Below, in pieces: positions 22,119 to 26,817 of a stretch of DNA of 27,859 nucleotides (within the stretch, counting starts at the first letter, position 1; every line of letters begins with the position of its first letter). A model generated the notes under the pieces. The model saw only the letters and a list, made by a program, of their open reading frames with translations, did not search any database and was not told the origin of the DNA. The DNA is from a bacterium. Its GTDB lineage: Bacteria; UBP4; UBA4092; JAOAEQ01. Position numbers and translations under genes: made by a program. The DNA is taken from assembly GCA_026416715.1 (NCBI GenBank), contig JAOAEQ010000007.1:105659-133517 (forward strand), read 5' to 3'.

Positions 22119-23324
22119 TTATTTCTTTGCACGAACCGCAGCGCCAATTTTTATCGGTAAGCCGAAGATTTCAACAAACCCTTTCGATAAACTCTGGTCG
22201 AATAAATCTCCTTTTTCATACGTTGCCAAATCAAGTTTATATAACGAATATGGCGATTTCCGACCAACTGCAACACAAGTTCCTTGAAGTAATTTCATTC
22301 GGATAGTTCCGGTTACGGTTTCTTGGGTAACATCAATAAACGCATCGAGTGCTTTTTTCAGCGGTGAAAACCAGAGTCCGTAATAAACGAGTTCAGAATA
22401 CCGCTGGGTTATCAACTCTTTATAATGCGCGGTTTCCCGATCAAGCGTCATTGCTTCTAGCTCACGATGTGCCCAATGTAATACAGTTGCTGCTGGCGCT
22501 TCATACACTTCACGTGACTTAATACCAACCAATCGGTTTTCAACTAAATCACTTCTGCCGATACCATTCGCTCCTGCAATCTTGTTTAATTCGGTAATTA
22601 AATCTACCGGATTTTTCCGTTGTCCATTTAGTCCCACAGGGATACCTTTTTCAAATTCAATTTCGACATACGTTGGCGTTTTCGGTGCAAGTTCCGGCGC
22701 AACCGTTAATTTATAGATATCTGCCGGCGGTTCTACCCAAGGATCTTCGAGAACTCCACATTCTATACTCATTCCCCATAAGTTTAAGTCGAGACTATAC
22801 GGACTCTTTTTCGTTGCCGAAACCGGAATCCCGTGTTTTTGGGCATATTCGATTTCTTCTTCTCGGGTTTTTAATTCCCATTCTCGAACCGGCGCTAATA
22901 CCTTCAATTCCGGCGCTAACGCCATTGCAGAAACTTCAAATCGGACTTGGTCATTGCCTTTTCCGGTAGAACCGTGGGCAACGGCATCCGCGTTCTCTTT
23001 TTTTGCAATTTCTACCAGATGTTTGGTAATAAGCGGTCTACCAAGTGCGGTAGCTAATAAATATTTATTTTCATAAATAGCGTTCGCTTTCAATGCGGGA
23101 AAGATAAAGTCGTTAACAAACTCTTCTCGGCAATCTTGAATATAGATTTTACTCGCACCAGTTTTAATCGCTTTTTCCCGCAACGGTTCCAATTCTTCTC
23201 CCTGACCGATATCGCAGGTGAACGCGATAACTTCACAGCCGTATTTTTCAACCAGCCATTTTATCATGACGGACGTATCTAATCCGCCAGAATACGCTAA
23301 AACTACTTTTTTCGGTTTATCCAT
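22119..23324 (-). CDS. argG: Argininosuccinate synthase
   Basis: The 401-aa cytoplasmic enzyme condenses citrulline and aspartate using ATP, the penultimate step of arginine synthesis. The N-type ATP pyrophosphatase loop AYSGGLDTS (10-18) is intact, as are [10 protein letters not shown], the citrulline-binding [14 protein letters not shown] and [11 protein letters not shown]. Length is exactly that of the usual bacterial enzyme. AAGAAAGGG lies about 7 nt before ATG 23324. No argH or other arginine gene is adjacent. It ends 25 nt before an intrinsic terminator. Confidence 0.97.
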
Positions 23325-23448: not shown

Positions 23449-23495
23449 TGGCCTGCCAGACGAAGCTTTAGCGAAGTCTGGCGGAAGAGGATAGG
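23449..23495. repeat. 47-bp repeat, copy A: displaced tRNA-Sec 3' end plus REP-like palindrome
   Basis: It is identical over all 47 bases to 23801-23847 and lies in the same orientation. It contains GCCAGAC (23455-23461) and GTCTGGC (23476-23482) around the core GACGAAG-CTTTAG-CGAAGTC. It also contains the last 17 nt of tRNA-Sec (T-stem end, acceptor strand, G and CCA), although no tRNA body is attached here. It overlaps the final codons and stop of the GIY-YIG gene. Confidence 0.95.
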
Positions 23496-23755
23496 TCCGA
23501 CTTCGTTGAAACTTCGTCGGATAAAAGTCGTTTCTTTAGAAAAGCTTTTCCAGATCCTCCTTTTAAATATTTTTCCAATTTTCTTGCGGTATTTTCCTTC
23601 TTTACTGCGATATATGTTTCTAACTCTATTTCTTTCATCTGTTTAGTCGTGTAGCATTTATTGGCTTTATGTTCAGCCATTCGCCGTTTTAAGTCATTTG
23701 TTGACCCAATATAAATCGTATTTTCTTTATCTTTTAGAATATAAACATACCACAT
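23468..23755 (-). CDS. GIY-YIG domain endonuclease-like protein
   Basis: The 95-aa single-domain protein is of the UPF0213/UvrC-N-terminal type. It carries the GIY-YIG strands as YVYILKD and IYIGSTNDLKRRMAEH, and a late helix ARKLEKYLKGGSGKAFLKKRL expected to hold the catalytic Glu. AAGAAAGGAA lies just before ATG 23755. The last 17 residues (SDEVSTKSD then LSSSARLR) are not part of the fold: the first nine are encoded by the palindrome 23496-23521 and the rest plus the stop by the 47-bp repeat copy A. The gene lies between the two copies of that repeat, next to tRNA-Sec. Proteins of this type are numerous in candidate-phylum genomes, and their function is mostly unknown. Confidence 0.85.
   Translation of the reverse strand: MWYVYILKDKENTIYIGSTNDLKRRMAEHKANKCYTTKQMKEIELETYIAVKKENTARKLEKYLKGGSGKAFLKKRLLSDEVSTKSDLSSSARLR
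23496..23521. repeat. REP-like palindrome inside the GIY-YIG gene tail
   Basis: TCCGAC (23496-23501) and GTCGGA (23516-23521) form the stem. On the minus strand the core reads GACGAAG-TTTCAA-CGAAGTC. This shares the outer seven bases on each side with the core of the 47-bp repeat, so the two palindromes belong to one family with different outer stems. Confidence 0.85.
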
Positions 23756-23800
23756 ATTGATTCCTTTCTTGCTTAAATTTAGTATAAGCTATGCATAGTC

Positions 23801-23847
23801 TGGCCTGCCAGACGAAGCTTTAGCGAAGTCTGGCGGAAGAGGATAGG
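23801..23847. repeat. 47-bp repeat, copy B: at the 3' end of tRNA-Sec
   Basis: It is an exact match of 23449-23495, 352 bp away. Here positions 23831-23847 are the genuine 3' end of tRNA-Sec and 23801-23830 lie downstream of it. A further GTCTGGC (23798-23804) precedes the palindrome, so two alternative hairpins can form, one of which includes the tRNA CCA end. Confidence 0.95.
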
Positions 23848-23927
23848 AGTCGAACCTACCATCCCGATTCGTCATCGGAACACACGGATTTGAAGTCCGG
23901 CAGCGACACCGGTCGCCATCCTCTTCC
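23831..23927 (-). tRNA. selC: tRNA-Sec (anticodon TCA), CCA encoded
   Basis: The 97-nt gene has an 8-bp acceptor stem (GGAAGAGG with CCTCTTCC), a 6-bp D-stem (GGCGAC with GTCGCT), the anticodon loop CTTCAAA with TCA, a long variable arm stem (TTCCGAT with ATCGGGA) and a 5-bp T-stem with TTCGACT. The 8+5 acceptor/T arrangement, long D-stem, long variable arm, G73 and UCA anticodon define a bacterial selenocysteine tRNA. It lies directly downstream of selB on the same strand, as part of a selenocysteine decoding cassette. Confidence 0.96.
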
Positions 23928-24008: not shown

Positions 24009-25916
24009 TTAATGTTTTCTTAAGATACGATAATCACCTTTTCGCAAAGTTAATCCTATTCTATCAAAATATTCAAGTAATGGGATAGCTAATTTCCGAG
24101 ATGTTCCTAACGCATCTCGGAATTCCGCAGCTTTAACCTGACCAGAAGCAGATTTAGTAAATAGCTCGATTAGTTTTGATTTCGCTTCTTCAAACTCATC
24201 TTTTCGCAGATAAATATCCGTTGATAACCTAATGAATATACCAAGCTGTTCTAATGCTTTTAAAACTTTCATTACCGATTTATCCGATAGGTGCAGTAAA
24301 GCAGAGATTTCTTCAATACGAGGCGGGTCAAATTTCCGAGTTTTATATAATGTAATAATCGAATCCCGAATTTTCTGTTCTTCTGGGGTAAATACAATTT
24401 GATGTTCAGGCAATCGGATAAATTTACCTTCAGTAATAATTTTCTGCTGCGAGACTAATTCTGCGATAATTTGTCGGTATATTTTCGGTACTACTTCTGG
24501 AGCAACCAAGCTTTTTAATGATTCGTAATCTATTCCCGGCTGTAATGGTTCTTTTTGATGGAACTCGCGAATCCGTCCAATGATATTCTCCTTCATTAGT
24601 TGGATTCGGGATTGTAATGCAGCTTCAGGAATAGTTTCCGATTCGAAGACTTTGATTTCTTCGATAGTATTGAGGAATGCAAATGTTTCTTCTATTCGCT
24701 GATTTACATATTCTGCTAAATCCGAAACTGGAATCGTTAGATGTTGCGATATAGCTAGGAACTGAACTACAATTTCTTTCAAATTATCTGAAGCTAAATG
24801 GTGCATTGCAGAAATAATTGATTCAGTTGGCAATCGATATCGTTCAGCGAATGCGTTGATAATTTTACCTCCGCCGAGTGTATGTTGTGCTTGTTCGTCG
24901 CGGAGAATAAATCGGTCATTTCGCCAAACTGCGAGCGGCGTTTGCAACTTCAATTGCGCGAACGCTGTTTCTCCCGGAAACAATTTCGCTCGGTTCCAGA
25001 AGTGGATATGACAAAGTTCTTCTGCGGTTCCGGTATGCAACCGTAATTTTATTCCGGATTTCAGGTCTAATTTCGCTGATGGAAGCAGATAGAATTGGAC
25101 ATCAATTCGGGTGGTGGTTCTTTTCAACTGTGGGGCACAGACAACATTCCCACGATGGAGTTGAATTTTCTCTATTCCTGGAAGATTGAGCGCAGTTCGT
25201 TGACCAGTTTGCGCTAGTTCTGCTGGAACATTATGCACTTCGATACTACGCACACGGGTTTCGATATTCTGTGGTAGAATGCGAACCGGGTCACCTTGTC
25301 GGATTATACCGGATGCAGGAGTTCCGGTAACAATCGTCCCGAATCCAGGTAGAACGAATACGCGATCGATTGGCATACGGAAATAGCCGGTTGTTGGTCG
25401 AACAGGAACAGTTTTCGATTCTTCAATAATCTTTTGTTTCAGTTCAGGAATTCCTTGTCCGGTTATTGCAGAGACCTGGAGAATTGGGAAGTGGGCTAAG
25501 GTAGTATTTGCGGATAACCGCTGGATTTGTTGGATGACCGTTTGGATACGTTCCGGCGTAACTAAATCAATTTTGGTGATAACGAATATTCCGTGGCTTA
25601 CCCCTAGCAAATGCAGAATTTCCAGGTGTTCTTGCGTTTGCGGCATAACCCCATCGTCGGCAGCAACAACAAATAACACTAAATCTATTCCTGTCGCTCC
25701 GGCGAGCATATTTCGGATGAAACGTTCATGACCAGGAACATCAACAATTCCAGCTCGTTCGCCCGTCGGTAAATCGAAATACGCAAATCCGATGTCAATG
25801 GTTATTCCACGTTCCCGTTCTTCTTTGAACCGATACGTTTCGATACCGGTTAACGCTTTAATTAATTCCGTTTTCCCATGGTCAATATGACCTGCTGTTC
25901 CGATAATAAATGGCAT
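24009..25916 (-). CDS. selB: Selenocysteine-specific elongation factor SelB
   Basis: The 635-aa GTPase brings Sec-tRNA to UGA codons marked by a SECIS element. The G domain shows GHIDHGKT (9-16), [12 protein letters not shown] (36-47), DVPGHE (59-64) and TKID (114-117). EF-Tu-like domains II and III follow ([14 protein letters not shown] onwards). The last 250 residues are the winged-helix repeats that bind SECIS RNA, including the final [20 protein letters not shown] and [19 protein letters not shown] phrases. Length is typical. It is followed after 81 nt by tRNA-Sec. No selA, selD or in-frame-UGA selenoprotein gene was found in the window, so these must lie elsewhere. Confidence 0.96.
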
Positions 25917-26742: not shown

Positions 26743-26817
26743 TGCCCCGTTGTGTAACTGGCAGCACGACAGACTCTGGATCTGTTTGTCTAGGTTCGAG
26801 TCCTAGCGGGGCAGCCA
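26743..26817 (+). tRNA. tRNA-Gln (anticodon CTG), CCA encoded
   Basis: The 75-nt gene has a 7-bp acceptor stem TGCCCCG with CGGGGCA, a D-arm GTGT/GCAC, an anticodon stem ACAGA/TCTGT with loop CTCTGGA (anticodon CTG), a T-arm CTAGG-TTCGAGT-CCTAG, discriminator G and CCA. It reads CAG codons. A second tRNA-Gln (TTG) must exist elsewhere. Confidence 0.95.

Follow-up and report, generated by a model that had tools for sequence, protein, structure and literature searches.

How does a selenocysteine tRNA gene come to carry its 3' end twice, with a single small nuclease gene in between? The question is raised by a locus in the window, that is, the whole stretch of 27,859 nucleotides of DNA that was analysed. 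Two direct repeats of 47 bp, at 23449-23495 and 23801-23847, are identical at 47 of 47 positions, and their starts lie 352 bp apart. Each consists of the terminal 17 nt of tRNA-Sec (CCTATCCTCTTCCGCCA), which span the 3' strands of both T-stem and acceptor, the discriminator and CCA, followed by 30 nt of a downstream hairpin region. A tRNA body is attached to just one of the two copies; this is the intact tRNA-Sec with anticodon TCA, called by ARAGORN as tRNA-SeC at 23831-23927 on the minus strand. Neither an integrase nor any gene other than a GIY-YIG ORF was found within the 352-bp unit. The repeats with their tRNA end, the single tRNA body and the lone gene had been recognised in an earlier, sequence-only reading of the DNA, and all of this holds. 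Identity over 47 of 47 positions rejects a chance origin of the repeat; it also makes the donor and native tRNA ends indistinguishable in the window, while small differences between the copies are seen at loci L108, L125 and L167. An assembly error was judged unlikely, since matching anatomy recurs in many independent genomes. When the genome was searched for the 47-bp repeat with up to three mismatches allowed, no further copy was found, and the search that had been proposed for other GIY-YIG genes flanked by this repeat in the same genome likewise came back empty.

All features of the unit and both flanking genes lie on the minus strand, along which the order is tRNA-Sec, left (L) hairpin, ribosome-binding site, ORF, right (R) hairpin, tRNA stub and second L-hairpin. 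The first repeat copy (23801-23847) holds the 3' 17 nt of tRNA-Sec (23831-23847), the L-hairpin (23808-23833, CCAGAC-TTC-GC-TAAA-GC-TTC-GTCTGG), whose first bases are the tRNA's own CCA, and the motif CAGGCCA; the design of this hairpin is common to 18 tRNA/tmRNA-linked loci. A putative ribosome-binding site, AAGAAAGGAA, lies 5' of the ATG at 23761-23770, and the ORF runs over 23468-23755. The R-hairpin (23496-23521, TCCGAC-GAA-GTTTCAAC-GAA-GTCGGA) is contained in the read-through of the ORF and abuts the displaced tRNA-Sec stub (23479-23495), which together with the second L-hairpin (23456-23481) makes up the second repeat copy (23449-23495). The L-hairpin had been noticed from the sequence and is confirmed, but the R-hairpin beside the stub had been overlooked. 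The gene argG (22119-23324) forms the downstream flank of the element and selB (24009-25916) the upstream flank of tRNA-Sec. An inverted repeat, I1/I2, between argG and the 47-bp repeat was judged fortuitous, as it falls inside the argG coding sequence. Inspection by eye of the tRNA-Gln gene of the window (26743-26817) revealed no such element.

What does the ORF encode? It matches the Pfam family GIY-YIG (PF01541) at 5e-14, above the cut-off, and Y5, Y15, G17, R25, H29 and E61 are invariant across 26 relatives; judged by its residues, the protein has the domain and the predicted catalytic Tyr, Arg and Glu by which the GIY-YIG nuclease superfamily is defined. The sequence-only reading had counted one GIY-YIG gene of 95 aa. 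The gene is indeed single, but the domain covers only residues 1 to ~80: the final ~15 aa (...SDEVSTKSDLSSSARLR) arise where the frame reads on through the R-hairpin and the tRNA stub, the proteins of relatives stop at about residue 80, and the confidence of the structure model drops there. The predicted structure is one GIY-YIG domain (pLDDT 85) and, unlike I-TevI-type homing enzymes, has no separate DNA-binding domain. Its fold resembles UPF0213, Slx1, UvrC-N and I-TevI (Foldseek; E-values weak), with UPF0213 as the top match, and the nearest solved structure by sequence profile is 1zg2 (5e-13), also of the UPF0213 / YhbQ type. The clade with a GSG motif described below is distinct from proteins of this type (PDB 1zg2, 1ywl), for which we know of no hairpin or tRNA-bound mobile context. 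The only other GIY-YIG match in the window's genome sits inside a 644-aa frame. Values of dN/dS for the family protein are 0.03-0.21, and the protein is under purifying selection. Several of the UPF0213-like GIY-YIG genes that were encountered (L024-L028, L034, L063-L067, L070, L072 and L076) are preceded by REP-like palindrome read-through (FPRKRESR, VIARNEVTKQ), which suggests a wider association between GIY-YIG genes and palindromes.

Is the site found empty in relatives? The comparison of the selB-tRNA-Sec-argG junction that had been proposed rests on one other genome of the phylum, G001: the gene order is that of the window, selB and argG are again the neighbours, and the site is empty, with a single tRNA 3' end. 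At this tRNA-Sec locus of G001, neither a GIY-YIG gene nor a hairpin of the L design was found. Further states are displayed by the tRNA-Ser(GCT)-miaB locus of a Dehalococcoidia family, which is empty in L226, holds a solo L-hairpin in L227, and in L098 and L099 carries the full element with tRNA end and hairpin duplicated. The duplicate copies are identical within the genome of L098 and nearly so within that of L099; between these genomes they differ. In 22 Mesorhizobium species, the states at tRNA-Ser(GCT) range from two divergent types of element, whose hairpins differ, through decayed copies and solo hairpin remnants to empty sites. In the first 40 bases past the tRNA-Ser of L263 lies a chimeric hairpin, its left half from one element type and its right half from another, which is consistent with recombination between successive invaders. 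In the Verrucomicrobia locus L102 (2240-3260), one tRNA-Ser is followed by a stack of two GIY-YIG elements; between them lies a displaced tRNA copy that is older and broken, with four tandem 24-bp units splitting it. The relatives are thus empty, solo-hairpin, occupied or decayed, and not uniformly occupied with diverged repeats, the pattern that the sequence-only reading had named as contrary to its proposal. An empty allele in relatives and a patchy, horizontally spread distribution, both expected of a free-standing homing endonuclease gene, are thus observed.

The element at the selenocysteine tRNA is real, but its scope had been underestimated. The closest homologues, picked by protein similarity alone, comprise 80 loci; an alignment of 13 divergent members (A1) was too variable for a scan, and a tighter one was used. 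Among loci encoding the GSG motif of the window protein (...YLK.GSG...), 34 of 41 lie directly downstream of a tRNA or tmRNA gene on the same strand, compared with 37 of 1018 random positions in the same loci. Of the seven left over, L142 has a tmRNA 3' end upstream and L138 a tmRNA ~0.5 kb upstream; L100 is cut off where its contig ends, and the tmRNA at L109 is convergent. In a set of 155 distinct ORFs, which was partly collected with tRNA-linked queries and is therefore less fair than the 80-locus set, 68 have a tRNA no more than 350 bp away, and all 68 are on the strand of that tRNA. Single genomes may hold several members at different tRNAs, as at Ser-GGA, Pro, His and Met in G113 and at Ser, Pro, Gly and Ile in G100. 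Loci L125 and L129 share 90% identity from the tRNA as far as the ORF stop, yet are located at different tRNA-Ser genes with different flanks. A scan of the viral collection gave four weak relatives; at a threshold of 1e-6, a search of 50,697 phage records yielded no relative of the L095 homologue, and a plasmid search gave none either, so no vector was identified. A candidate-phyla GIY-YIG clade (L106, L111, L116, L118, L121, L132, L136 and L155), whose proteins mostly end in ...FLSLTG, lacks a neighbouring tRNA; the ends resemble an inverted repeat of another kind, and the clade may represent a sister element directed at a different target.

The window element belongs to a widespread, multi-phylum family of minimal elements at tRNA and tmRNA genes that has apparently not been described. 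We found no published account of bacterial GIY-YIG genes that duplicate tRNA ends in a search that left most subscription journals and preprints outside, and a prior description is possible. In the tree, which was built on 83 columns and leaves many forks open, the window protein clusters with L095, L096, L097, L098, L099, L100, L101 and L102. The hosts of this clade span Caenarcanales, Ignavibacteria, Dehalococcoidia, Cyclobacteriaceae, Alphaproteobacteria and Verrucomicrobia. All members with an identified tRNA are at tRNA-Ser, and the window element itself is at tRNA-Sec. The family shows a preference for tRNA type: the tree requires 9 changes between Ser/Sec and other targets, compared with 15.6 when the targets are shuffled, and none of 300 shuffles is as low.

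What kind of element would behave in this way? We consider it probable that this is a minimal homing-type, site-specific mobile element, which inserts into tRNA genes and provides a substitute for the tRNA end that it displaces. The unit would consist of replacement tRNA 3' end, L-hairpin, GIY-YIG gene and R-hairpin, ~352 bp in all, placed in the T-arm of tRNA-Sec. Its own 3' end would rebuild a complete tRNA-Sec upstream. The native 3' end would stay behind the gene as a stub, accompanied by an older L-hairpin. The GIY-YIG protein may cut or nick an unoccupied gene of the tRNA-Ser/Sec type near the T-arm and the 3' strand of the acceptor, after which repair would copy the element in from element-bearing DNA. 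Splitting and rebuilding the site would render an occupied allele immune, and recombination between the direct repeats could delete the gene to leave a tRNA with a solo hairpin. A minimal mobile or homing element at tRNA-Sec is what the sequence-only reading had suggested; the empty site and the states of the relatives support it, while its catalysis and movement are what we infer.

The closest precedent is found in the mORFs of fungal mitochondria (Allomyces atp6; Glomus atp6, atp9, cox2 and nad3), in which gene ends are duplicated (PMC3630166). There, too, an endonuclease ORF, of the GIY-YIG type in Glomus atp9, inserts and brings a replacement 3' end, and the native end persists as a stub. 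The window and the family show the same hallmark, a target-gene end duplicated across the ORF and the gene rebuilt. In contrast to the tRNA elements, mORFs hit organellar protein genes and are mostly LAGLIDADG ORFs (PMC3630166); the tRNA elements hit bacterial tRNA and tmRNA genes, encode a single domain of 80 aa and have conserved hairpins at both ends. Another stand-alone GIY-YIG gene situated among tRNA genes is segB of phage T4, whose product drives the inheritance of that region (PMC2988022). Unlike the tRNA elements, SegB is phage-borne and intergenic, and the passages on it describe no rebuilding of tRNA ends (PMC2988022).

Copies at unrelated tRNAs of one genome exceed strict allelic homing and count against it. 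Since allelic homing explains neither the moves between different tRNAs nor the conserved hairpins, a GIY-YIG-driven transposon has been kept as an explanation, albeit an unlikely one. Its ends would be the inverted terminal hairpins, on which the nuclease would act as a transposase, perhaps in single-stranded form; with similarly low probability, the tRNA duplication would be a target-site duplication and movement between tRNAs true transposition. The two explanations differ in what they predict for the duplicated ends. Behind the ORF, the tRNA 3' end is repeated (score at least 11) in 16 of 53 loci with a tRNA upstream, compared with 24 of 2588 mismatched pairs of tRNA and locus. The hosts include Dehalococcoidia, Ignavibacteria, Caenarcanales, Kiritimatiellae, Bacteroidetes, Saccharibacteria and Phenylobacterium. 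The duplication comprises ~10 to ~60 nt of the tRNA, and more if the hairpin is included, so that the constant length characteristic of transposon target sites is not observed. Its inner boundary varies among T-arm, acceptor and anticodon arm, and its outer boundary in many loci is a few bases from the tRNA terminus or just beyond the L-hairpin. A boundary at the gene terminus combined with a varying inner one is predicted by a carried replacement end and not by a fixed target-site duplication. In some pairs, moreover, similarity stops at the ORF stop and not beyond the R-hairpin, which also speaks against a transposon. No stub is detectable in many members, notably those of Mesorhizobium and those linked to tmRNA, and the duplication is thus either not obligatory or decays fast. 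In a mirror-image group, where the tRNA lies downstream of the GIY-YIG gene, the 5' part of the tRNA is duplicated upstream in 11 of 15 cases; L205, L203, L062, L074, L029, L010, L013, L015 and L153 are members of this class. Next to the element at two loci, L129 and L265, the tRNA 3' end is also present in inverted orientation, which hints at fold-back synthesis.

The hairpins speak for a transposon. In the window clade the core of the R-hairpin is the inverted core of the L-hairpin, giving terminal inverted repeats such as those of insertion sequences and other transposons, and the solo hairpin state and paralogues at different tRNAs of one genome fit as well. Solo palindromes elsewhere in the window's genome can be added: the palindrome core, GACGAAG-N6-CGAAGTC, recurs exactly at three more places, C1:82168, C1:131563 and C9:39006 (L077, L078 and L082), none of them near a tRNA. 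Across tRNAs and tmRNA the L-hairpin follows the design CCA-nnC-TNC-GC-loop-GC-TNC-Gnn-TGG, its leading CCA belonging to the tRNA, and is usually followed by C(A/G)(A/G)GCCA or similar. A strict 6-bp CCA-anchored hairpin is present at 17 of 41 linked tRNAs and at 4 of 71 other tRNAs, two of the latter being the solo hairpin of L227 and a tRNA-Ser of the window's genome. This comparison is a fairer test than the covariation seen at stem positions 4 and 5 of the L-hairpin, which change on both sides in a count that used hairpins partly selected for pairing. Fold z-scores of the L-ends are mixed, partly because the repeated GCCA tail offers a competing alternative pairing. On contig C32 of the window's genome (L037, ~1270-1510), two tRNA-Ser genes have hairpin relics of the family type directly after CCA, with no GIY-YIG gene alongside; these are possible footprints of earlier occupation.

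Could the hairpins be the targets of the nuclease and not the ends of an element? The Ssn proteins described by Chenal et al. in 2025 are said to be small, site-specific single-stranded GIY-YIG nucleases with dispersed cognate repeats, and to our knowledge no tRNA-end duplication accompanies them. A single-strand-specific nuclease of this kind, modulating DNA uptake or recombination and linked to tRNAs only as a by-product, would suit the single small domain, the conserved hairpins in cis and the palindromic repeats that adjoin related GIY-YIG clades. It leaves unexplained why tRNA ends are rebuilt, why orientation and site are strict, and why sites occur empty or stacked, and is less likely still than a transposon.

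Tyrosine-integrase islands also duplicate a tRNA 3' end, restore the tRNA and favour tRNA and tmRNA genes. It is conceivable, therefore, that the GIY-YIG gene is cargo left between attL and attR by a larger integrative element that lost its integrase, the more so as the 3' ends of tmRNA and tRNA-Ser/Leu/Sec are classic attachment sites. Such islands are kilobases long and carry an integrase, whereas the 352-bp unit has none; the same minimal unit of gene and hairpin design recurs in many phyla without an integrase, and another clade duplicates tRNA 5' halves. A remnant of this kind is thus highly improbable. Least credible is a host gene for tRNA maintenance that lies beside tRNA genes by chance, as purifying selection and strict adjacency to tRNAs are outweighed by a patchy distribution, by close relatives whose alleles are empty or decayed, by the many isotypes and by the several phyla within one clade.

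A homing-type element that carries its own tRNA end therefore remains the preferred explanation. More tentatively, and with somewhat less than even confidence, we propose that an autonomous element of a hitherto unrecognised class, ~300-400 bp long and made up of a single-domain GIY-YIG nuclease and CCA-anchored hairpin ends, moves among unrelated tRNA and tmRNA genes and rebuilds the interrupted half. The family has apparently been overlooked because its copies are ~350 bp and are annotated as a generic GIY-YIG protein. As natural families, these elements lend themselves to direct tests of cleavage specificity at tRNA-Ser/Sec ends. The element would rank among the smallest autonomous mobile elements, and would account for orphan tRNA fragments and REP-like hairpins beside tRNAs. 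Integrases classically dock at genes for tRNA and tmRNA; the family appears to offer a second solution, which needs no integrase and relies on one small nuclease gene.
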